A stretch of DNA of 38,890 nucleotides, taken from assembly GCA_023665725.1 (NCBI GenBank), contig JAMPDH010000001.1:67567-106456 (forward strand). Reading direction: 5' to 3'. How positions within the stretch are numbered: position 1 is the stretch's first letter; the number at the start of each line of letters is the position of its first letter. Below, one piece after another: positions 21,162 through 34,608 of the stretch. Source of the DNA: Clostridium sp. GTDB taxonomy: Bacteria; Bacillota_I; Bacilli_A; RF39; UBA660. The position numbers and the translations under genes were made by a program. The notes under the pieces were generated by a model, which saw only the letters and a program-made list of their open reading frames with translations, had not been told where the DNA came from and ran no database searches.

Positions 21162-21632
21162 TTAATTGTTAATTTCTTCTAGCATTTGTTCTTTAATTTT
21201 ATCTATATCGGTAAAGAATAGATTGTTACCATGATTTTTCATAGATATTAAGTATTTAAAATTAGTTAATATTTCATCTTTTAAACTATCTATAACTTTT
21301 AAGGGTTTCCCATCAACAATATGTGGATGATCTATATATTTTTCTAAAGTAGGAAAAGCATTTTGAATTAGAATCACTTGCTTTTTACCTCCAATTGCCT
21401 CAATTAATATTGATTTACAATCACCATATTTTTTAATTTTTTTATCTATAATTGGCTGATATTTTGAAATTTTACTACTTAATGGTATGAACCATAAAAT
21501 ATCTTTATCTTTGATAGTAAAATAAGTAGGTCTAGCATGTCCATTTTCATGATTTATCATAAGACTTTTGTTATTAATCTTGTCGAAAAATTCATCCTTA
21601 ATATGGTAAATATAACCAGTTTTTATTTTCAT
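21162..21632 (-). CDS. Type III toxin, ToxN/CptN/TenpN-like endoribonuclease
   Basis: The ATG at 21632 is chosen (156 residues), since GGGAG lies 8 bases upstream; the TTG at 21647 would put that ribosome site inside the gene. The protein is soluble, basic and opens KIKTGYIYHIKDEFFDKIN, with ENGHARPTYFTIKD and LWFIPLSSKISKYQ after it. This pattern fits the ToxN/AbiQ superfamily, in particular the CptN-like proteins of gut Bacillota, which cleave mRNA and are held inactive by a repeat RNA. The decisive support is upstream: a promoter, 50-nt RNA repeats and a hairpin terminator immediately before the toxin, the classic type III order. Type III systems act in phage defence and plasmid maintenance. 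Catalytic residues cannot be assigned from sequence alone. Confidence 0.82.
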   Translation of the reverse strand: MKIKTGYIYHIKDEFFDKINNKSLMINHENGHARPTYFTIKDKDILWFIPLSSKISKYQPIIDKKIKKYGDCKSILIEAIGGKKQVILIQNAFPTLEKYIDHPHIVDGKPLKVIDSLKDEILTNFKYLISMKNHGNNLFFTDIDKIKEQMLEEINN

Positions 21633-21665
21633 TTTATCAACTCCCAATAAAATTGTATTAGAGAT

Positions 21666-21692
21666 AAAAAGAAAACTCTATCAGTTGATAGA
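21666..21692 (-). terminator. Attenuating terminator between antitoxin RNA and toxin gene
   Basis: On the minus strand TCTATCA (21692-21686) and TGATAGA (21683-21677) pair, followed by an interrupted T run (TTTTCTTTTT). In type III systems such a leaky terminator makes antitoxin RNA exceed toxin mRNA. Confidence 0.75.
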
Positions 21693-21810
21693 AGTTTCCA
21701 ACATTTACAACCAGAATATTTTATATCCCGCACCATCTGGGAGCGGTTAACATTTCGCGTCTGGAATAATTTATAGCCCGCACCATCCAGGAGCGGTTAA
21801 CATTTACATA
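21691..21810 (-). repeat. 50-bp tandem repeats (2 full, 1 partial) of the antitoxin RNA
   Basis: Units at 21761-21810 and 21711-21760 match at 39 of 50 positions, and 21691-21710 continues as a degenerate 20-base piece. The central CCGCACCAT and GAGCGGTTAACATTT stretches (plus-strand reading) are invariant, while paired bases change together. Confidence 0.9.
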
Positions 21811-22028: not shown

Positions 22029-23201
22029 TTATTTATAAGCAACTTTTTCTATAACATCAGATCCATTTGCATTATTAACTATATCTATTAATATATTTAC
22101 TATGAATGGTAATATAAATAATACTACACAAGCTATTAATCTTTTTACAAAACTTGATTTAGCTTTACTTACTTGTTCTTCATTTCCTGCTGCTGTTGCT
22201 TTTATAAAATCTAACATTCCTAGAACTATCATTAATATTATTCCAACTATTCTTATGAGATTTAATGCCCAATCTATTATTTCTTGTGTTTTATCATCTA
22301 TTAATTTTCCACTAAAATTAGTTGTAGTATTGGTATTATTTTCGGTACTAGAATTTGGTCCTTGTTTTATAGCACAAGTTCCAACTAAACTTTTGTATTC
22401 ATCATATACTATATCTGCATCCTTAGTACTATATGTAGAAGGTAATTTACTTTTTAGTTCCCTATATTTATCTAATTGGTTATTACTAGAATGCATATTT
22501 TTTCCAAAGTAATTAGTTCTATTACAATCACTATTATAAGTTTCATTCCATTTTCCACTTTTATATTTTTCAATATATGATTTCATAACGTTAACTTGCT
22601 GTTTAAATAATGTTTCTTTATTTTCATCTGGTGTTATTCCATCTTCCAAAAAACCTACATATCCATTTTTTTCGAATATATCCATAGTGTTTTTGATTTC
22701 TTTATTAGAAAATATGAAAGCTGCTTTTTTATTATTAGAACTTTTAGGACTTGCTCCTGCATATACAAAGTTAGGACATTTATTATTTGTTCCTATTTCA
22801 CTTTGTACTTGAGCTATAGTCATTCCACCATTTTCACTTCCAATAATATCAAAATACGGTTCATTACTTATGTTAACTAATTTACCAATTGCACTTACAG
22901 AATGATAAGCGCAATCTGAAGATGAATCACAAATTGTGGTAGGACTCATGTTAATAATATATATATAATCATCTTTGTTATAATCTCCAACCTTCGTTTT
23001 CATTTTAAATATTGAAAAATTCCAATTTGAAGCAGCACCTTGTGTTCCAGTATTATTGTATAACCCTTTTGCACAAATTTCTTCAGAATTAGCAAGAATT
23101 TTCGGTAGTTCAGCTTTAACAATACTATCAGCAGAGACATTACTAATAAATACTGTCAAAAAAAATGTTGTGATAAAAAAATATACTATTCTCTTTTTCA
23201 T
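22029..23201 (-). CDS. Secreted protein with VirB2-like C-terminal domain (variant 1)
   Basis: This 390-residue protein has a signal peptide ending FISNVSA, a unique ectodomain with seven cysteines (about 25-290), and a C-terminal VirB2-like domain (295-390). The C-terminal domain has two membrane helices around GMLDFIKATAAGNEEQVSKA and SSFVKRLIA. Those 96 residues are almost identical to the end of the divergent gene at 23519, while the ectodomains are unrelated. The small VirB2-like protein at 9475 is a third, older relative. The protein should be a membrane-anchored, pilin-like subunit carrying an exposed domain. AGAAGG lies 8 bases before the ATG. Upstream I see no good promoter in the current DNA orientation; one palindromic site of the proposed switch lies 64 bases ahead. 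Confidence 0.85.
   Translation of the reverse strand: MKKRIVYFFITTFFLTVFISNVSADSIVKAELPKILANSEEICAKGLYNNTGTQGAASNWNFSIFKMKTKVGDYNKDDYIYIINMSPTTICDSSSDCAYHSVSAIGKLVNISNEPYFDIIGSENGGMTIAQVQSEIGTNNKCPNFVYAGASPKSSNNKKAAFIFSNKEIKNTMDIFEKNGYVGFLEDGITPDENKETLFKQQVNVMKSYIEKYKSGKWNETYNSDCNRTNYFGKNMHSSNNQLDKYRELKSKLPSTYSTKDADIVYDEYKSLVGTCAIKQGPNSSTENNTNTTTNFSGKLIDDKTQEIIDWALNLIRIVGIILMIVLGMLDFIKATAAGNEEQVSKAKSSFVKRLIACVVLFILPFIVNILIDIVNNANGSDVIEKVAYK
22141..22323 (-). repeat. 183-bp perfect inverted repeat, copy 1
   Basis: This part of the VirB2-like domain is base-for-base the reverse complement of 24310-24492. The similarity continues with scattered changes to both gene ends. Synonymous sites are also identical, which indicates recent duplication or gene conversion. 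Confidence 0.9.
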
Positions 23202-23259
23202 AAAATTTACCTTCTTTAATTTATATATTTTATTGTTTTTAATATTCTAAATTTAAATA

Positions 23260-23288
23260 TATCTTAGAACAATATGTTCTATGATATT
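23260..23288. promoter_or_regulatory. Palindromic site 1 of a putative invertible switch
   Basis: AGAACA and TGTTCT flank the centre ATA (23266-23280). Read on the minus strand, 22 bases of the site match the plus-strand sequence of site 2 exactly, and the match continues with GATA after one mismatch. The asymmetric centre (ATA here, TAT there) shows the two sites in opposite orientation. It could also be an operator. Confidence 0.7.
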
Positions 23289-23343
23289 TTTTTTAATAAT
23301 TTATATATTTTTTAATTATATTTACACTATTTTTAATATATTT

Positions 23344-23374
23344 TTGTTTATTTTATAATAAAACATGTTATAAT
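23344..23374 (+). promoter_or_regulatory. Extended -10 promoter between the two palindromes
   Basis: TGTTATAAT (23366-23374) is a perfect extended -10 element; TTGTTT (23344-23349) is a weak -35. Transcription would start near 23381, just before site 2, and read the plus-strand gene at 23519. If the segment between the palindromes were inverted, it would face the minus-strand gene instead. Confidence 0.65.
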
Positions 23375-23384
23375 TTATATAGGA

Positions 23385-23415
23385 GTTATCATAGAACATA
23401 TTGTTCTATGATAAC
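23385..23415. promoter_or_regulatory. Palindromic site 2 of the putative switch
   Basis: This is a perfect palindrome with 14-bp arms (starting GTTATCATAGAACA) around the centre TAT. The DNA between it and site 1 is only about 96 bp. Transcribed, it would form a strong hairpin at the 5' end of the downstream mRNA. Confidence 0.75.
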
Positions 23416-23518
23416 TTTGATGGTTCTTATCAAAAGTATAAATATAATTATTAGATACATTAATTTAAAAATAAATTTTTATATCTATTTAATTAATTAG
23501 GAGGACGTAAAAAAATAT

Positions 23519-24604
23519 ATGAAAAAATTAAAATATTTTATATTTACAATAGCATTATTGCTAATAGGAAGTGTATTTGGTTGCAATGAAGTAAAAGCAG
23601 AAGTAAAGAGATGTTTTTATAAATCTTCTCTTGGAAATGGGACATATGCTGGTAATGTTGCAGTAGCAACACTTGATATTGATACAGAAAAAAAATCAGC
23701 TGATATTTCTATTTCAATTTCATATGATAATGGAAATTCATTATACTGTGGTGGTAGTGAATACACAGGTAATAATGGTGATTGTAGTAAAACATATAAG
23801 GCTACAATTGATTTAAAAAATACAAATGAATGCCCTAGTACACTTTATTATCATCATCTTAGTTTGAATGATGAAAGGAAATACGAAATAAGATATGATA
23901 TATGTCCAAATACATGGAATACTAATTCTACACCACCTAATAATAATGGTAATTGCTTATATACTTGGAATGGTCAAACTGATTCTTATTATAACACGGA
24001 AAAATTTACTATAACTTCTCAATCATATGTTAATGAATCAATCTGCATATATAAATGGGATTCCAGTAATACTAAGTTAGTTAAAGATTCAAATGGTTCA
24101 ATATCAGTAACATTAAAAGCAGAAGGTCCTGTATTTAATGCTTGGCCAGGATGCGATGGTCAAACAAATAATCCTAATGATATTTTTTCAAATTCTACAT
24201 GTCCACAGCAAATTTATTGTAACACATCTAATAATTGTAAAAATCCAGGTTGGTCATTAACATCATGTGATAAAACAAATCAAAGTACCGAAAATAATGC
24301 AAATACTGAAACTAATTTTAGTGGAAAATTAATAGATGATAAAACACAAGAAATAATAGATTGGGCATTAAATCTCATAAGAATAGTTGGAATAATATTA
24401 ATGATAGTTCTAGGAATGTTAGATTTTATAAAAGCAACAGCAGCAGGAAATGAAGAACAAGTAAGTAAAGCTAAATCAAGTTTTGTAAAAAGGTTAATAG
24501 CTTGCGTAATATTATTTATATTACCATTCATAGTAAATTTATTAATAGATATAGTTAATGATGCAAATGGATCTAATGTTATAGAAAAAGTTGCTTATAA
24601 ATAA
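23519..24604 (+). CDS. Secreted protein with VirB2-like C-terminal domain (variant 2)
   Basis: This 361-residue protein has a signal peptide (MKKLKYFIFTIALLLIGSVF, cut probably after KA near residue 28), a Cys-rich ectodomain (about 30-262) of beta character and a VirB2-like C-terminus (266-361). The VirB2-like part differs from that of the divergent gene by only a few conservative changes; the ectodomain shares no evident similarity with it. AGGAGG lies 14 bases before the ATG, a long spacing. The 5' leader of about 140 bases includes a palindrome. In the present orientation the only clear promoter of the intergenic region faces this gene, so this variant should be the expressed one. The function is inferred: an alternate surface-exposed subunit of the T4SS or a related fibre. 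Confidence 0.85.
   Translation: MKKLKYFIFTIALLLIGSVFGCNEVKAEVKRCFYKSSLGNGTYAGNVAVATLDIDTEKKSADISISISYDNGNSLYCGGSEYTGNNGDCSKTYKATIDLKNTNECPSTLYYHHLSLNDERKYEIRYDICPNTWNTNSTPPNNNGNCLYTWNGQTDSYYNTEKFTITSQSYVNESICIYKWDSSNTKLVKDSNGSISVTLKAEGPVFNAWPGCDGQTNNPNDIFSNSTCPQQIYCNTSNNCKNPGWSLTSCDKTNQSTENNANTETNFSGKLIDDKTQEIIDWALNLIRIVGIILMIVLGMLDFIKATAAGNEEQVSKAKSSFVKRLIACVILFILPFIVNLLIDIVNDANGSNVIEKVAYK
24310..24492 (+). repeat. 183-bp perfect inverted repeat, copy 2
   Basis: Exact reverse complement of 22141-22323. Recombination between the copies would invert about 2.3 kb, including both ectodomains and the promoter segment. Confidence 0.9.
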
Positions 24605-24668: not shown

Positions 24669-25127
24669 TTATTTTTTATGTATTATTTCATAAGTTTTTG
24701 CTTTTTTATCTAAAGTTTTAACCATATCTGTATTACTTATAAAATAAATTTTAACTAAATCATTTAAAGACTCTTTAATAAGTTTATTAAAAAAATCATC
24801 AAAACCCGAAACTATTAATATATCACTTTTTACTTCATCTCTAATTTTATTTATATTAGTTTTATAACTTATAAAATTTATATTAAAACCATATATTTGT
24901 GATAATACATTAATTAATATAGAAGTAATATTTGTGTCTGAATTAGACATTATACAATCGATTTTATATCCTTTTAGATCTTGATTTGGTAAAATGCTTA
25001 ATATTTTTTCACATATATTTTCAATTTCAAGTTTATTAAATTTCATATTATTTCTATTTATTTTTGATATATTTTCTATAAGTTTGTTTTTTTGAATCTG
25101 CTTTATTTCAGTATTATTTTCTTCCAT
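24669..25127 (-). CDS. Unrecognised 152-residue cytoplasmic protein
   Basis: This Lys/Asn/Ile-rich soluble protein has no signal peptide or membrane helix. An N-terminal helical stretch (about 1-45) is followed by what looks like an alpha/beta domain: YKIDCIMSNSDTNITSIL, then DILIVSGFDDFFNKLI and KIYFISNTDM, strand-helix patterns reminiscent of small nucleotide- or sugar-phosphate-binding folds, though no motif is diagnostic. AGAGGG precedes the ATG. It lies between the proposed switch region and the tyrosine recombinase, back to back with the latter, so a link to control of recombination is possible but unproven. Confidence 0.65.
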   Translation of the reverse strand: MEENNTEIKQIQKNKLIENISKINRNNMKFNKLEIENICEKILSILPNQDLKGYKIDCIMSNSDTNITSILINVLSQIYGFNINFISYKTNINKIRDEVKSDILIVSGFDDFFNKLIKESLNDLVKIYFISNTDMVKTLDKKAKTYEIIHKK

Positions 25128-25275
25128 ATTATTTTACCCTCTTTAAATAATATTTTACATGTTTAATTATAATAAATTTTTTATAAAATTGCAAAGTATC
25201 AAAAATTATCTCTAAGTTAACTTTTTTTCTTTAATTATAATATTTACCATTTAAAATATGAATGAAGGAGGTTAT

Positions 25276-26214
25276 ATGATTTTAGAAAAGAAAAATATTA
25301 AGATAGTTAATGATATTATAGACGTATGGATTAATTCTAAATCTCAAATTAAGGTTCAATCTTATCAAAGATATGAAAGGTTAATTACTGTACATATTGA
25401 GAAAACAATGGGTAAATATAAATTAAAGAAGTTAACAGGAATAGATATAAAAAAATATTTTAATGAATTAGAGTTAAAAAAAGTTTCTACATCTGTTCAA
25501 AAAACAATTTTTTATATTTTACATTCTTCATTACAAATAGCAATGGAAAAAAGGCTTTGTAATCCAATTAATTTTAAAGAAGTTAATTTTAAATATAAGC
25601 AGATAGAAATTAATATTTTAAGCAAAAAAGAACAGATAAGATTAGAATATGAACTAATGAAGAACGATAATATTAGAAAGATATGTTTATTACTTACACT
25701 TTATACTGGTTTAAGAATAGGAGAACTTAGTGGCTTAAAATGGAGTGATATAGATTTTTTAGATCAGTGCTTATACGTGAAAAGAACAGTTAGTAGAATA
25801 AAATATAGTAATGGAATTATAAAAACAAAATTAGTAGTTGGAACACCTAAGAGTAATACCTCTAGTAGATGTATTCCAATACCAAAATTTTTAATAGAAT
25901 TGTTAAAAAAATATAGAAGTCACCCTAATTATTTTATATTATCTAATTCTACTAATATATATGATCCAAGACTTATGGAATATTTTTATGTTAGAATTAT
26001 GAAAAAATGTGGTATTAAATATACTAATTTTCATACCATGAGACATACTTTTGCGACTCGTTCAATAGAATCAGGAATGGATATTAAAGCATTAAGTGAA
26101 ATATTAGGTCATTCATCTGTTCAAATAACTCTAAAAATTTATGTTCATCCTACAAAGGAATATAAAAGAAAATCTTTAGAAAATTTAGTTAAATTCATGT
26201 CTATAAAAAAATAA
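25276..26214 (+). CDS. Tyrosine recombinase / integrase
   Basis: The ATG at 25276 is preferred (312 residues): AAGGAGGT stands just before it, while the earlier ATG at 25258 has no ribosome site. Residues 1-100 form an integrase-type DNA-binding SAM-like domain (NSKSQIKVQSYQRYERL). The catalytic domain shows the full active site: Arg147 in TGLRIGELSG, a Lys in the KTK...TPKS beta turn, His253-x-x-Arg256 in HTMRHTFATR, His279 in LGHSS and nucleophile Tyr289 in KIYVHP. It cuts and rejoins DNA through a phosphotyrosine. It could belong to a mobile element, or act as the invertase of the palindrome-bounded segment 2 kb upstream, as tyrosine recombinases do in several phase-variable loci. Its target is not shown by sequence. 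Confidence 0.9.
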   Translation: MILEKKNIKIVNDIIDVWINSKSQIKVQSYQRYERLITVHIEKTMGKYKLKKLTGIDIKKYFNELELKKVSTSVQKTIFYILHSSLQIAMEKRLCNPINFKEVNFKYKQIEINILSKKEQIRLEYELMKNDNIRKICLLLTLYTGLRIGELSGLKWSDIDFLDQCLYVKRTVSRIKYSNGIIKTKLVVGTPKSNTSSRCIPIPKFLIELLKKYRSHPNYFILSNSTNIYDPRLMEYFYVRIMKKCGIKYTNFHTMRHTFATRSIESGMDIKALSEILGHSSVQITLKIYVHPTKEYKRKSLENLVKFMSIKK

Positions 26215-26583: not shown

Positions 26584-29500
26584 ATGAATAAACGGGGCTT
26601 TACATTAGTAGAATTACTCGCAATAATAGTAGTATTAGCAATTATCGCTCTTATTACAATTCCGGTATTTACTAATATTATAGAAAATTCTAACAAGAGT
26701 GCATTTTTAAGATCAGTAGATGGATATGTTAGGGCAATACAAACAGAACATTTAACAGAATTTTTATATGGAGAAAACACTAAAGATTTTGTAATAATAA
26801 AAGGTCATGTAAATGGTAAATCTTTAGTAACAAATGATAGAGAAATATATAGTGGGATATTAAATTTTAATTCAATGGGAGGATATTTTTTAATACTTAC
26901 TAATGGAAAATATTGTGCTTATAAAAACTATAGCGATAAAAAACCAGAAATAGTAGATAATATATATTGTGAAATTGATTTAACTGAAGGAATATACGAA
27001 CCTATAATAGAAGTACAAGAGGAAAATGTACTAACAGAAAATAAAGATATAACAGTTAATTTTATAAATAATACAAATACAAATCAGTATTGTATAGGAG
27101 AATATACAACAGATATGACTATAGTAAATTGTGATGACTGGGTAACAGTAAATGACAGCATGGCAAACTTTAATATTAGTGAAAAATCAACTATATATGC
27201 TAAAGTATTTAATGATGAAAAGGAATACTTAGTATCTAAATCTATCACTAATATAGGAGAGGTTGTTGTCGATAAAACACCAACAATAGATAGTTTAACA
27301 TTATCTGCAGGAGATGATTATATAACTGTAACTGTTACAGCAAGTGCATATAAGGATAATGAAATTGCAAAATATTATTATAGTATTAATGGTGAAGATT
27401 ATATTGAAAGTGGTAATGCGTATTATACTTTTGAAAACTTAGAAAAAGATGTTGAATATGAAATAAAAGTATATGTAGAAGATGATGAGGAACGTATTTC
27501 AGATATAAGTAGTAGTTCATTGATAATTTCAGATGAAGAAAAAATACCTACAATATCTCTTACTACAACAAGTGAAGAAAATGCTATAACGGTAACAACA
27601 ACCGCAACAGCATATAATGGAGCAACAATAGAAAAATATTACTATAAAATAGATGATGGGGAATATATAGAAAGTAATCTTATATATCACACATTTGATG
27701 ATTTAGAACCAATAGTAGATCATAAAATAACAGTATATGTAAAAGATAGTAATAGTTTAGAATCAAAAGAAGAAGAAATAAGTACGAAAACAACTTTTGT
27801 AGATAAGACACCAATAATAGAAAGTTTAACATTATCTGCAGGAGATGATTATATAAGTGCGACTGTTTCTGCTAAGGCATATAAAGATAATGAAATCGTA
27901 AAATATTATTATAGTATTAATGATGAAGATTATATTGAAAAAACTGAATTATATCACATTTTTGAAAACTTAGAAAAAGATGTTGAATATGAAATAAGAG
28001 TATATGTAGAAGATAATGAAGGAAATATATCTGAAGTAAAAAATAATAAAATAACAATAGAAATAGAATCAGAAGAAAAAAATCCAACAATTACATCTTT
28101 AACAACAACAAGTGGAGAAGATATAGTAATAGCGTTAGTTAGTGCGAAGGCATATGGTGGTAGTAAAATAGTAAATTATTACTATGAAATAGATGAAGAA
28201 GGATATGAACAAAGTACAGAAAAATATTATCAATTTAAAGGTTTGGAACCATTTGTTGAACATATAATAAATGTATATGTAGAAGATAGTGAAGGAAGAA
28301 TATCAGAAGTTTCTAGTATAATAGTAACTACAGTGCCTCAACAGGATCCACCAGTGATTGAATCATTAACAACAACAAGTGGAGAAACTAGTATAACAGT
28401 AACTGTATCAGCAACAGCATATAAAAATGCATCTATAACAAATTATTATTACAGTATAAATGGTGAAGAATATATAGAGAGTACAAAAAATTATTATAAT
28501 TTTGAAGACTTGAAACCAAATAAAGATTATTTATTTAGAGTATATGTAAAAGATAGTAACGATTCTGTTTCAGAAATAAGAAGTATAAAAGCAATAACAA
28601 ATGCGGATGTACCATATTTAACAATAGTGGTAAATAATGAGGGATATGAATATAATAATGAATTATGGTATCCATATGGAACTTCAATAACATTAAATTT
28701 CGCACCAGATATGAAAGATTCAACTGGATATTATCAAAATGTAAATGAAAGCAGTAAAACTGAGAGTATTTGGGTATCAAATGGTACAGCTAACAAAAAA
28801 AATATAACATTAAATGAATCATATACATATAGAATAAAACTTGTAAATAAAGATGGTACAGAAAGTAGTATAGTAGAAGAAAAAATAAATATTATGCCAA
28901 AAACAACAGGATCAATACAACAAAATTATTTTAAATACAATATGGGAGGAATATATCCTGTATATATTCCAATTAAAACTAATACAACAGGGACACTTTA
29001 TGGAACAGATTATTATGGAAGAAATCACCAAATAACAAAATCAGCTGCGCATATGGGATTAATAAGTTATAGTGGAAGTTATACAACAGAAGAAAAGTTA
29101 TTATATGTAAAATTAATACCATGTCCAGAAGGTGGATATATAAAAAGTACAAGAAATGGAAAAACAACAAGTAAAAGTAGTTGTAGCAGTAGTTATAATG
29201 GATATGTATTTGTAACAGAAGACGGAACAGAAATTATAGGTCCAAAAATAACAGGACTTACAACGTCTGAAACTGAAGAAGATATATCAGTTACTGTGAC
29301 AACAGAAGCATATAATGGAGCAACAATAGAAAAATATTATTATCAAATTGATAAAGAAGAAATAATAGAGAGTACAGAACCATATTATACATTTGGAAAT
29401 GTAGTTCAAAATGTAGTACACAAAATAACGGTATATGTAAAAGATAATAATGGTGCGGTTTCAGAAATAAAAAGTATAACAGCAGTAACTAGTAATGATA

Positions 29501-32500
29501 TTCCGCTTCCAGTAATAACATTAAATCAAACTGGATATGAATATAATGGAGAGTTATGGTATCCATCAGGGACAAAGGTAACAATAACATATCAAGAAGA
29601 TATGACAAACTTGAAAGGATACTATCAAACTGTAAATGCAAGTAGTAATGAAATAAGTAGATGGACTGCAGCAACAAGTTCTTCATATACTACAGCATTA
29701 ACAGAAAGTATGATATATAAAGTTCAAATAAAAGATAGTGCAGGAAGAGAAGGAAATATAGTAGAAGAAAAAATAAATATAATGCCAAGCCCAACAGGTA
29801 CAATAAAAGCAAATTACTTTAAATATAATATGGAAGGCATATATCCAGTATATATTCCAAATGAAACTAATACAACAGGAACACTTTATGGAACAGATTA
29901 TTATAGAGATAGTAATATAGCAAAAGCTGCAACACATATGGGATTAATGAGTTATAGTGGAAGTTATACAACAGAGGAAAAACTACTATATATAAAATTA
30001 GTACCGTGTCCAAGTGTTGGATATATAAAAAGTACAAGAAATGGAAAAACAACAAGTAATAGTAGCTGCGGTAATGGTAATAATGGATATGTATTTGTAA
30101 CAGAAGACGGAACAGAAATTATAGGTCCAAAAATAACAGGACTTACAACGTCTGAAACTGAAGAAGATATATCAGTTACTGTGACAACAGAAGCATATAA
30201 TGGAGCAACAATAGAAAAATATTATTATCAAATAGATAATGAAGAAATAAAAGAAAGTACAGATTTATATTATACATTTGAAAATGCAGTTCAAAATGTA
30301 GTACATACAATACATGTATATGTAAAAGATAGTAATGGCGCAGTTTCAGAAATAAAGAGTATAACAGCAGTAACTAGTAATGATATTCCACTTCCAGTAA
30401 TAACAATAAATGGAACTGGATATGAATATAATAGTGAATTATGGTATCCATATGGAACAAAAATAACAATAGAATATCAAGCTGATATGACAAACTTGAA
30501 GGGGTACTATCAAACTATAAATGCAAGTAGTGATGAAGAGGGAAAATGGAATTCAACAACAAGTTCTTCATATACTGTAACGTTAAATGAAAGTATGATA
30601 TATAGAGCTCAAATAAAAGATAGTGCAGGAAGAGAAGGAAATATAGTAGAAGAAAAAATAAATATAATGCCAAGCCCAACAGGTACAATAAAAGCAAATT
30701 ACTTTAAATATAATATGGAAGGCATATATCCAGTATATATTCCAAGTGGAACTAGTACAACAGCAACGATTTATGGAACAGATTATTATAGAGATAATAG
30801 TTCTATATCATCAACAGCAGTACATATGGGATTAATGAATTCTGTTAGTTCAGAAACAACAGAATCAAAATTACTATATATAAAATTAGTACCATGCCCA
30901 GAGGGTGGATATGTAAAAAGTACAAAGAACGGAAAAACATCAAGCTCAACTAGTTGTGGTAGTACTAATGCATATGTTTTTGCAAAAAAAGATGGAACAG
31001 AAATAATCGCACCAAAAATAACAGGTCTTACAACAACAGAATATGAAGATGATATAACGGTTTCTGTAACAACAGAAGAATATAATGGAGAGGTAATAGA
31101 AAGGTATTATTATCAAATAGATAATGGAGAAGTAATAGAAAGTGTGATTCCATATTATACATTTGAAAATCTTGCCCCATATGTAATACATACAATAAAT
31201 GTATATGTAAAAGATAGTAATGGTTCTATATCAGAAATAGCAACTATAACATCAAAAACAGAAAGAGAAATGGCGATTCCTATAATAACAATAAATGGAA
31301 CCGGATATGAATATAATAATGAATTATGGTATCCATATGGAACAAAAATAACAATAGAATATCAAGCTGATATGACAAGTATAAAAGGATACTATCAAAC
31401 TCAAAATGTAAGTAGTGGTGAAGAGGGAAAATGGAATTCAACAACAAGTTCTTCATATACTGCAACGTTAAATGAAAGTATGATATATAGAGCAAAAATA
31501 ATAGATAGTGCAGAAAGAGAAGGAAATGTAGTAGAAGAAAAAATAAATATAATGCCAAGTCCAACAGGGACAATAAAGGATAACTACTATACATATAATA
31601 TGGAAGGTATATATCCAGTATATGTTCCAAGTGGAACTAGTACAACAGCAACGATTTATGGAACAGATTATTATAGAGATAGTAGTTCTATATCAGCAAC
31701 AGCAGTAAATATGGGATTAATGAGCGCTGTTAGTGGAAAAACAACAGAATCAAAACTACTATATATAAAATTAAAACCATGTCCAAGTAGTGGATATGTA
31801 AAAAGTACAAGGAACGGAAAAACATCAACTGCAACTAGTTGTGGTAGTACTAATGCATATGTTTTTGTAACTAAGGATGGAAAAGAAATGATAGGTCCAA
31901 AGGTAACAGGACTTTCAACAACAAAATATAGTGATGATATAGCAGTAACAACAACCGCAACAGCATATAATGGAGCAACAATAGAAAAGTATTATTATCA
32001 ACTAGATAAAGGGGAAGTAGTAGAAAGTACAGAGCAACATTATACATTTAAAAAAGTAATATTAGATGAGGAACACACAATAAATGTATATGTAAGAGAT
32101 AGTAATGGTGTAGTTTCAGAAATAAGTAGTACAACAGCAACTATTAACTCTACTGTTCCATATTTATCAATAAGAATTAATGATAAAGGATATGAATATA
32201 ATGGAGAGTTATGGTATCCATCAGGAACAACAATTACTTTAAATTATTCATCAAGTATGACAAATTTAAAAGGATATTATCAAACTGTAAATGTAAGTAG
32301 TAGTAAAGAAAGTTCATGGAGCTCAACAACAAGTTCGACCAAAACTGTAACATTGACTGAATCTATGATTTATAGAATAAAAATTGTAAATAGTAATGGC
32401 ACAGAAAGTAATATAGTAGAAGAAAAAATAAACATTATGCCAAAAGAAAATTCATCAACTAGTTCTGTTCCATCAAATTATTATACATATAATATGGGAG

Positions 32501-34608
32501 GAATATATCCAGTATATATATCTGGAGGTGTAAGTTTTGGAACAAATGTAGGGGTACATGGAAAAGATTATTATAGTAAGAATTCAAATATATCAAGAGC
32601 AGCTGCTCATGTAGGATTAATAAGTTATGAAGGTTCAACTATAAAAGAATCAAAATTAGTATATATAAAATTAATATCATGTCCAGAAGGGGGCTATATA
32701 AAAAGTACAAGAAATGGTATATCAGCAACTGCAACTAGTTGTAGTAGTAGTTCTAATGCATTTGTATTTGTAACAGAAGATGGGACAGAAATACTTGGCC
32801 CAACAATAACAAGTCTTACAACGACAGAGTATGATGAAAGTATAACAGTTACTACGACAACTGAAAGTTATAATGGTCAGAAAGTTTCAAAATATTACTA
32901 TCAAATAGATGATGAAGAGATAAAAGAAAGTGAAAAATCATATTATACTTTTGAAAATGTAACACCTTATGAAACACATACAATAAATGTATATGTAAAA
33001 AATGGTGATGGTACAGTATCAGAAATAATGAGTGTTACAGCAATAACAGAAAAAGAAATACCAATTCCAGAAATAACAATAAGTGGAACTGGATATGAAT
33101 ATAATGGAGAATTATGGTATCCATCAGGAACGAAGATAGCAATAACATATCAAGCAAATATGATAAACTTAAAGGGATATCATCAAACTGTAAATGTAAG
33201 TAGTGGTAAAGAAAATTCATGGACTTCAACAACGAGTTCAAAGTATACTACAACATTAACAGAAAGTATGATATATAGAGCTAAAATAATAGATAATGCT
33301 TCAAATGAAAGTGATATGGTAGAAAAGAAAATAAATATTATGCCAAAGGTAAATACATCAAATAGTCCTATTCCAACAAATTATTATACATATAATATGG
33401 GAGGAATATATCCAGTATATATTGCAGGAGGTTCAAGTTTTGGAACAAATGTATCAGTACACGGTACAGATTATTATAATAAAGATTCAAATATATCAAA
33501 ATCTGCTGCACATGCAGGATTAATAAGGTATAGTGGATCAAAATTAGAAGAATCAAAATTACTATATATAAAATTAATACCAACTCCAACTAATGGATAT
33601 ACAGCAAGTACAAGGAATGGAATAACATCAACTATATCTAGTTCTACTAATGCTTCTAATGGATTTATATTTGTAACGGAAAATGGAACAGAAATAATAG
33701 GTCCAAAAATAATAGCTCTTACAAAAACAGAAAAAGAAAATAGTATAGCGGTAGCAGTAACAACAGAAACTCATAATAATCAAGAAATTTCTAAATACTA
33801 TTACCAAATGGATAATGGACAAATAATGGAAAGTGAAATTCCGTATTATGTATTTGAAGATGCAACATCATATGTGTCACATACAATAAATGTATATGTA
33901 AAAACTAATGATGGTACGGTATCTGCAATAAGTTCAATAACAACAAAAACAACAAAAGAAGTACCAACTCCAGAAATAACAATAGATGGGGTCGGATATG
34001 AATACAATGGAGAATTATGGTATCCATATGGAACAAAAATAACAGTAACTTATCAAACAAATATGGCGAACTTAAAAGGATATTATCAAAATATAAATGT
34101 AAGTAGTGGTAAAGAAAGTTCATGGAGTTCAACATCAAGTAGTTCATATACAACAACTTTAAGTCAAAGTATGATATATAAAGCAAAAATAGCAGATAGT
34201 ATGGGAAGAGAAAGTAATATAGTAGAAGAAAAGATAAATATAATGCCAAAGATAAATGCAACAACAAATTCTATTCCAACAAATTATTATACATATAATA
34301 TGGGAGGAATATATCCGGTATATATAGCAGCAAATTCAAACTTTGGATCAACTGTAGCAGTACAAGGAACGGATTATTATAGCAGTAATACAAATATATC
34401 AAGAGCAGCCGCTCATATGGGATTAATAAGCTATGAAGGTTCAACAATAAAAGAATCAAAATTACTATATATAAAATTAATGCCAAAGCCAAGTAGTGGA
34501 TATATAGCAAGTACAAGAAATGGAATAACATCTGGTTCAAATGGTAATTCTAATGGATTTATATTTGTAACAGAAACAGGACAACAAATAACAGGAAAAG
34601 AATTATAA
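26584..34608 (+). CDS. Giant type IV prepilin-like protein with Fn3 and LCCL repeats
   Basis: This 2,674-residue protein opens MNKRGFTLVELLAIIVV, a textbook type IV prepilin leader: cleavage after Gly5, Phe at +1, Glu10 at +5, then one hydrophobic helix. After a pilin-like head (to about 230) come five Fn3-like units (about 232-675; each with KYYYSING or similar and a VYVKDSNG end). Seven composite units of about 295-301 residues follow. Each has a GYEYNGELWYPSGT module and an LCCL-like domain opening YNMGGIYPVYI (residues 785, 1081, 1376, 1671, 1969, 2270, 2571). The LCCL-like part shows YGTDYY, AAAHMGLI and GY-x-x-STRNG. A further Fn3-like unit stands between successive LCCL domains, 11 Fn3 in all. 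No C-terminal anchor is seen; attachment should be through the pilin helix. Probably a very long adhesin. Confidence 0.9.
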   Translation: MNKRGFTLVELLAIIVVLAIIALITIPVFTNIIENSNKSAFLRSVDGYVRAIQTEHLTEFLYGENTKDFVIIKGHVNGKSLVTNDREIYSGILNFNSMGGYFLILTNGKYCAYKNYSDKKPEIVDNIYCEIDLTEGIYEPIIEVQEENVLTENKDITVNFINNTNTNQYCIGEYTTDMTIVNCDDWVTVNDSMANFNISEKSTIYAKVFNDEKEYLVSKSITNIGEVVVDKTPTIDSLTLSAGDDYITVTVTASAYKDNEIAKYYYSINGEDYIESGNAYYTFENLEKDVEYEIKVYVEDDEERISDISSSSLIISDEEKIPTISLTTTSEENAITVTTTATAYNGATIEKYYYKIDDGEYIESNLIYHTFDDLEPIVDHKITVYVKDSNSLESKEEEISTKTTFVDKTPIIESLTLSAGDDYISATVSAKAYKDNEIVKYYYSINDEDYIEKTELYHIFENLEKDVEYEIRVYVEDNEGNISEVKNNKITIEIESEEKNPTITSLTTTSGEDIVIALVSAKAYGGSKIVNYYYEIDEEGYEQSTEKYYQFKGLEPFVEHIINVYVEDSEGRISEVSSIIVTTVPQQDPPVIESLTTTSGETSITVTVSATAYKNASITNYYYSINGEEYIESTKNYYNFEDLKPNKDYLFRVYVKDSNDSVSEIRSIKAITNADVPYLTIVVNNEGYEYNNELWYPYGTSITLNFAPDMKDSTGYYQNVNESSKTESIWVSNGTANKKNITLNESYTYRIKLVNKDGTESSIVEEKINIMPKTTGSIQQNYFKYNMGGIYPVYIPIKTNTTGTLYGTDYYGRNHQITKSAAHMGLISYSGSYTTEEKLLYVKLIPCPEGGYIKSTRNGKTTSKSSCSSSYNGYVFVTEDGTEIIGPKITGLTTSETEEDISVTVTTEAYNGATIEKYYYQIDKEEIIESTEPYYTFGNVVQNVVHKITVYVKDNNGAVSEIKSITAVTSNDIPLPVITLNQTGYEYNGELWYPSGTKVTITYQEDMTNLKGYYQTVNASSNEISRWTAATSSSYTTALTESMIYKVQIKDSAGREGNIVEEKINIMPSPTGTIKANYFKYNMEGIYPVYIPNETNTTGTLYGTDYYRDSNIAKAATHMGLMSYSGSYTTEEKLLYIKLVPCPSVGYIKSTRNGKTTSNSSCGNGNNGYVFVTEDGTEIIGPKITGLTTSETEEDISVTVTTEAYNGATIEKYYYQIDNEEIKESTDLYYTFENAVQNVVHTIHVYVKDSNGAVSEIKSITAVTSNDIPLPVITINGTGYEYNSELWYPYGTKITIEYQADMTNLKGYYQTINASSDEEGKWNSTTSSSYTVTLNESMIYRAQIKDSAGREGNIVEEKINIMPSPTGTIKANYFKYNMEGIYPVYIPSGTSTTATIYGTDYYRDNSSISSTAVHMGLMNSVSSETTESKLLYIKLVPCPEGGYVKSTKNGKTSSSTSCGSTNAYVFAKKDGTEIIAPKITGLTTTEYEDDITVSVTTEEYNGEVIERYYYQIDNGEVIESVIPYYTFENLAPYVIHTINVYVKDSNGSISEIATITSKTEREMAIPIITINGTGYEYNNELWYPYGTKITIEYQADMTSIKGYYQTQNVSSGEEGKWNSTTSSSYTATLNESMIYRAKIIDSAEREGNVVEEKINIMPSPTGTIKDNYYTYNMEGIYPVYVPSGTSTTATIYGTDYYRDSSSISATAVNMGLMSAVSGKTTESKLLYIKLKPCPSSGYVKSTRNGKTSTATSCGSTNAYVFVTKDGKEMIGPKVTGLSTTKYSDDIAVTTTATAYNGATIEKYYYQLDKGEVVESTEQHYTFKKVILDEEHTINVYVRDSNGVVSEISSTTATINSTVPYLSIRINDKGYEYNGELWYPSGTTITLNYSSSMTNLKGYYQTVNVSSSKESSWSSTTSSTKTVTLTESMIYRIKIVNSNGTESNIVEEKINIMPKENSSTSSVPSNYYTYNMGGIYPVYISGGVSFGTNVGVHGKDYYSKNSNISRAAAHVGLISYEGSTIKESKLVYIKLISCPEGGYIKSTRNGISATATSCSSSSNAFVFVTEDGTEILGPTITSLTTTEYDESITVTTTTESYNGQKVSKYYYQIDDEEIKESEKSYYTFENVTPYETHTINVYVKNGDGTVSEIMSVTAITEKEIPIPEITISGTGYEYNGELWYPSGTKIAITYQANMINLKGYHQTVNVSSGKENSWTSTTSSKYTTTLTESMIYRAKIIDNASNESDMVEKKINIMPKVNTSNSPIPTNYYTYNMGGIYPVYIAGGSSFGTNVSVHGTDYYNKDSNISKSAAHAGLIRYSGSKLEESKLLYIKLIPTPTNGYTASTRNGITSTISSSTNASNGFIFVTENGTEIIGPKIIALTKTEKENSIAVAVTTETHNNQEISKYYYQMDNGQIMESEIPYYVFEDATSYVSHTINVYVKTNDGTVSAISSITTKTTKEVPTPEITIDGVGYEYNGELWYPYGTKITVTYQTNMANLKGYYQNINVSSGKESSWSSTSSSSYTTTLSQSMIYKAKIADSMGRESNIVEEKINIMPKINATTNSIPTNYYTYNMGGIYPVYIAANSNFGSTVAVQGTDYYSSNTNISRAAAHMGLISYEGSTIKESKLLYIKLMPKPSSGYIASTRNGITSGSNGNSNGFIFVTETGQQITGKEL
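28615..34605 (+). repeat. Seven-fold long tandem repeat (about 885-905 bp period)
   Basis: LCCL starts fall at 28936, 29824, 30709, 31594, 32488, 33391 and 34294. Units 1 to 4 are closest to each other and units 5 to 7 form a second group lacking the Cys pair in the last two. 29195-29348 and 30080-30233 are identical over 154 bp, so unit number can change by recombination. Confidence 0.92.

Follow-up and report, generated by a model that had tools for sequence, protein, structure and literature searches.

The 100-bp segment between two divergent pilin genes in the window, the whole stretch of 38,890 nucleotides analysed here, is probably an invertible promoter that selects which of two ectodomain-bearing pilins is expressed. 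We put at about 0.83 the probability that a tyrosine recombinase acting in trans runs a network of four invertible-promoter loci, the one in the window being an on/on switch that selects between two ectodomain pilins. The evidence comprises the anatomy of the sites, the placement of the promoter, the repeated cassettes, the complementarity of the cores, one sister locus found both ways round and orthologs most of which have sites of this kind on either side. In the proposed mechanism, the recombinase would bind two 11-bp inverted arms per site and exchange strands across the central 5–7 bp; inversion of the segment is the product expected, because the cores at a locus are reverse complements. 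In the assembled state, the single outward extended -10 promoter would drive pilin B on the plus strand. Inversion would bring the promoter end next to the left site, from where it would drive pilin A on the minus strand. The population would then be a mix of cells that carry either one ectodomain or the other on the shared T4SS pilin anchor, and the predicted phenotype is display at the T4SS pilus or the surface. Three more promoters in the genome would be turned by this enzyme: those ahead of two giant prepilins, as on/off switches, and one located between a GNAT gene and hpf. The coordinates are collected in Table 1.

Table 1. Features of the switch locus and its recombinase, in window coordinates.
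Feature	Position	Strand	Description
Pilin A	22029..23201	-	ORF; secreted, 390 aa; unique ectodomain and C-terminal T4SS pilin domain (PF18895 E=3.4e-06)
Left recombination site	23260..23286	.	11-bp arms, core AATAT; TATCTTAGAAC-AATAT-GTTCTATGATA
Invertible segment (putative)	23287..23386	+	100 bp, single strong promoter; homologous to cassettes at C13 and C22
Extended -10 promoter	23366..23374	+	TGTTATAAT; 12 bp from right site, facing pilin B
Site-formed hairpin	23382..23418	+	near predicted 5' end of pilin B transcript; fold z-score -4.8
Right recombination site	23387..23413	.	core ATATT, reverse complement of left core; TATCATAGAAC-ATATT-GTTCTATGATA
Pilin B	23519..24604	+	ORF; secreted, 361 aa; different ectodomain and C-terminal T4SS pilin domain (PF18895 E=5.8e-06); RBS AGGAGG upstream
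Tyrosine recombinase	25258..26214	+	inferred trans-acting invertase; Phage_integrase E=1.7e-26, Phage_int_SAM_3

The two sites in the window are 27 bp each and are identical at 26/27 positions when aligned as inverted copies. The cores match at 5/5 positions as inverted copies and at 2/5 as direct copies. The first-pass annotation had described a 22-base inverted identity (23260-23288 and 23385-23415) around an interior of about 96 bp; the inverted pair is real, but its extent and the length of the interior are revised to the values given here. The opposite orientation that it had judged from the asymmetric centres is borne out, the cores AATAT and ATATT being exact reverse complements. Inverted arms surround an overlap that is identical between the partners (5/5), as in the core sites of tyrosine recombinases. 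The segment is short, intergenic and bounded by inverted repeats, with an outward promoter inside (the promoter on sequence evidence alone), as in invertons. When the window was randomised 30 times by a first-order Markov model that kept its dinucleotide make-up, no inverted palindrome pair like the observed one arose, and lone palindromes arose at a mean of 1.3 per window. The assembly contains a single orientation of the window locus, and inversion of this segment is what its anatomy predicts. An Rfam search gave no match. Transcripts from the switch would start near the long hairpin formed by the site.

The promoter in the segment has a weak -35 element (TTGTTT, 19-bp spacer), and because of this a simple sigma-70 scan of the window did not list it. 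No equivalent promoter toward pilin A was found at the window locus, in agreement with the original reading of one convincing extended -10 facing the plus-strand gene and none facing the minus-strand gene. The assembled orientation is predicted to have pilin B ON and pilin A OFF; the 'off' pilin could still be expressed from a weak promoter outside the segment.

The two pilins lie downstream of the VirB4/VirD4 cluster. As first proposed, they are divergent secreted proteins with unrelated ectodomains and near-identical VirB2-like domains: the shared C-terminal T4SS_pilin domains are 93.5% identical in protein sequence, and comparison of the ectodomains gave no significant similarity. Neither ectodomain has relatives from which an alignment could be built. 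At the DNA level, the two genes are 96% identical in a 329-bp stretch that runs up to the stop codons. The PF18895 two-helix domain at the C-terminus scores 27.5 and 26.7 bits against a gathering score of 26.6, a narrow pass in both pilins. In the congeners G001 and G002, there is one ectodomain pilin each, immediately after virD4 in the T4SS cluster. The order in the window is virD4, a CptIN type III toxin-antitoxin and then the two divergent pilins, a layout that could be explained by duplication with ectodomain replacement and capture of a promoter cassette. Proteins with the T4SS pilin domain occur in 257/291 genomes of the family, many of them with long N-terminal parts. Several such genes of varied length stand in tandem at G179:C17, G046:C6 and G281:C13, which suggests repertoires of ectodomain pilins.

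The surroundings of the pilins are as follows. The region 1-21073 holds genes for a Tad/VirB11-like ATPase and TadB/C-like proteins together with VirB4, VirD4, VirB6-like and VirB2-like genes, apparently a hybrid cluster; the ATPases and the coupling protein were assigned by profile match and the rest by eye. Inserted between virD4 and the pilins is the CptIN-type toxin gene (21162-21810, minus strand; NCBIfam NF047359, 154 bits, cut-off 90), preceded by two tandem repeats of ~50 nt that look like an RNA antitoxin. A 152-aa ORF (24669-25127, minus strand) between pilin B and the recombinase has no Pfam, NCBIfam or PADLOC match. Right after the recombinase, 26584-34608 encodes a giant prepilin-like protein of 2674 aa with an N_methyl motif and many repeated Ig/fn3-like units; no recombination site was found upstream of this gene.

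The whole assembly of the same genome (G000) was searched with the arms only, leaving the core free and using the reversed pattern as a control. Nine sites were found, against none for the control, with pairs 127–150 bp apart. They make up four loci: the window, C13:17237/17366 with C17:34, C22:92621/92771 and C11:28796/28924. Relaxing the site pattern added just two matches in G000, both unpaired, and a DNA search of the genus gave, outside G000, AT-rich chance matches alone. Protein and exact-pattern scans of the genome_contigs and viral_contigs sets gave no match. The C13 and C22 cassettes lie immediately upstream of near-identical giant type IV prepilin-like genes (paralogs), and the C11 cassette sits between a GNAT acetyltransferase gene and hpf. 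The target of the C11 cassette (G000:C11:28796-28950, equivalent to L024 6797-6951), next to the gene for the ribosome hibernation factor, is unusual in not being a surface protein. Contigs C22 and C26 both end inside prepilin-paralog genes (C22 in the 5' part, C26 in a later part) and may be the two ends of one broken gene.

All four segments in G000 have interiors of 100–123 bp and carry TGNTATAAT pointing outward, 12–13 bp from one site. Over the promoter-size segments, this motif points outward 12–15 bp from a site in 6/7, where ~0.04 would be expected per segment. The C13 and C22 promoters have TTGAAA ahead of TGNTATAAT at 16-bp spacing and look strong by eye. The cores are reverse complementary at 5/5 positions in 3/4 of the G000 loci and also at G104 C21 and in G099 (chance ~0.0026 per pair). 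Most loci within one genome differ in their cores, and these differences may keep the loci from recombining with each other; C13 and C22 have their core in common and could recombine with each other.

The C13 locus is found both ways round. The last 35 nt of C13 are repeated at C17:48-82 and represent the common outer flank of the distal site. On C13, the cassette is oriented with its promoter end toward the prepilin gene. On C17, the promoter end is fused to the distal flank, with 33/33 positions identical to C13 and one mismatch to C22. The site itself is the point at which the two arrangements diverge, to the base, and its inner arm moves with the segment. The promoter end is joined to opposite flanks, and therefore both orientations are present in the assembled population; this is the pattern that a mixed ON/OFF cell population yields in assembly. 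The core of the distal site for the same flank reads ATATA on C13 (L009 7367-7393), a 3/5 match to its partner, versus the matching AAGTA on C17 (L025 34-60). This discrepancy may be an assembly error, or mismatched cores may have exchanged strands and then segregated. Synteny with G001 and G002 did not reveal the C13–C17 junction, these congeners being without a cassette at that place.

The recombinase had been described as a tyrosine recombinase with an intact active site 2 kb from the segment, which holds. It matches PF00589, and the catalytic R, K, HxxR, H and Y were located by eye in the motifs TGLRIGE, TPKS, HTMRHTF, LGHSS and YVHP. Translation probably starts at 25276, behind AAGGAGG. 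The enzyme belongs to the broad XerC/D-integrase group. The NCBIfam models for tyrosine-type DNA invertases match it weakly (E=1.4e-05), and its 25 bits, against a cut-off of 221, place it outside the FimB/FimE type.

The enzyme is tied to the sites by orthology. A survey of 291 genomes of the family gave orthologs with 44–55% identity at 17 loci in 16 other genomes. In 13/17 loci, inverted sites surround the recombinase gene, with scores of 43–54 and cores matched at 5/5; the maximum at 271 control positions was 40. L085 scores 40, no better than the controls, and a 14th flanking pair, at L077, was recognised by eye (cores ATAGT/ACTAT). The cores of the flanking sites match within a locus and vary between loci, and several of the ortholog cassettes carry an outward TGNTATAAT near a site. 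In the tree, the window recombinase falls inside a clade with 99/97 support that contains nine flanked enzymes. G104 has a self-flanked recombinase and, elsewhere, three promoter-size pairs (cores ATAGT/ACTAT, ATACT/AGTAT and AAGTA/TACTT); its C5 segment is without an extended -10. The cassettes in L093 and in L080/L087 point in opposite directions; this was not retained as comparative proof that inversion occurs, the flanks being not clearly homologous.

A search around the window recombinase revealed no site pair, not even a degenerate one. Because this copy shows no flanking sites, it appears to have lost its own and now to act purely in trans. The genome encodes four other tyrosine recombinases (C18, C23, C25 and C28), so that one of these could be the enzyme that inverts the segment, the more so as no sites flank the window enzyme. 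We regard this as very unlikely. They are only 27–38% identical to it over part of the length, whereas the window enzyme lies 2 kb from the segment and alone groups with the clade flanked by this site type. Catalysis by the window recombinase is the reading we prefer.

The same results bear on the main alternative named in the first-pass annotation, that the palindromes are paired operators of one dimeric regulator serving divergent promoters, with no inversion. Palindromes between divergent genes are classic for operators and the arms are symmetrical, yet we give this explanation hardly any credence. It offers no reason why the core should be kept asymmetric, with reverse complements at each locus and differences from one locus to the next, and it accounts neither for the sister cassettes, nor for the C13/C17 arrangement, nor for the sites that flank recombinase genes in relatives. 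The invertible promoter first proposed, by comparison, gains support from the three further cassettes, the two orientations at C13/C17, the site-flanked orthologs and the placement of TGNTATAAT.

Whether inversion at the window locus switches between two genes or one gene on and off depends on the flanks. At C13 and C22, the cassettes would be on/off switches because, when inverted, they point into terminal or non-coding flanks. At the window locus, the switch would be on/on because the inverted promoter would face pilin A with an RBS between. The start codon of pilin A is 58 bp from the left site, a Shine-Dalgarno sequence is present and the gene has no better promoter of its own. A parallel is found at G240:C18 (L077 8480-10400), where a recombinase cassette lies between two divergent exopolysaccharide (EPS) operons; their first genes encode near-identical sugar transferases, and the promoter TGTTATAAT faces the right operon. 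From its layout, the G240 cassette follows the same on/on logic as the window locus. It is unlikely, though less so than the two alternatives above, that the segment inverts and is effectively an on/off switch for pilin B, with pilin A expressed from elsewhere or poorly. The sister cassettes at C13/C17 and C22 are of the on/off kind, and the leader of pilin A is shorter than, and different from, that of pilin B; the position and ribosome-binding sequence of pilin A, the arrangement of two divergent genes that have a domain in common and the EPS analogue favour on/on. The anatomy of the locus and the G240 parallel thus back the earlier proposal of a choice between two variants rather than simple on/off switching.

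In Salmonella Hin/fljBA, the invertible segment contains the gene for Hin, a serine recombinase, together with an outward promoter. The relatives of the window recombinase resemble this arrangement, with recombinase gene and outward promoter inside the segment; the window copy differs from Hin in lying outside and acting, as we propose, in trans. In Campylobacter fetus sapA, inversion of a several-kb segment points a single promoter at either of two divergent surface-protein genes, which makes an on/on choice, and the products are S-layer proteins. The window locus would share the on/on choice and differs in segment size, recombination route and type of protein. Inversion of small promoter segments by tyrosine recombinases, the precedent named at the outset, is well known, from fim (PMC6083910) and RecV (PMC7446863), and choice of pilus domains is known through shufflons. 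At fimS, the short promoter segment that FimB/FimE flip is bounded by inverted repeats (PMC6083910); that switch is on/off for a single operon, unlike the window locus, and the window enzyme is far below the cut-offs for FimB-like invertases. In Clostridioides difficile, a single tyrosine recombinase, RecV, works in trans and inverts several small segments (flg, cwpV, cmrRST) that control surface functions (PMC7446863, PMC2784873). That mode of action is the likeness to the window enzyme. As far as described there, the RecV switches are on/off, as opposed to the proposed on/on at the window locus, and the window-type sites differ in being strong palindromes with locus-specific 5-nt cores and in belonging to a recombinase clade that is mostly self-flanked. 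The R64/TP114 shufflon (Rci, PilV) uses a tyrosine recombinase to change the adhesive domain joined to a constant pilin part in a conjugation-linked pilus, and that of TP114 confers recipient specificity (PMC9045228). The shufflon rearranges coding segments and its anchor is a type IV pilin; at the window locus, it is a promoter that would flip, the genes on either side being complete, and a VirB2-like domain serves as the anchor. Among the gut invertons that have been catalogued, inverton group 139 with tyrosine invertase group 35 is an example in which a short invertible promoter has a tyrosine recombinase close by, mostly in Clostridia, and the main text makes no link to pilins (PMC11892184); the likeness to the window locus lies in this general layout. 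A promoter choosing between two ectodomain T4SS pilins by an enzyme with self-inverting relatives was a combination not found described in the open-licence literature.

A wider view is offered tentatively, at slightly less than even odds: the recombinase clade would be an undescribed, ancestrally Hin-like one that repeatedly seeded promoter-only cassettes flipped in trans, with the 5-nt core as an address that insulates each locus from the rest, and the network in this genome would select the ectodomain of a T4SS pilus. The evolution of recombinase and site type, with a self-inverting cassette giving rise to a network run in trans, would be traceable across genera, and the locus-specific cores make it testable how switches of one enzyme avoid cross-recombination. 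Inversion also accounts for some of the contig breaks in this genome. The window locus would be a clear case of phase-variable choice between T4SS pilin ectodomains in a family of bacteria with small genomes. If this is true, the choice of ectodomain possibly alters the mating partner, adhesion or phage sensitivity.
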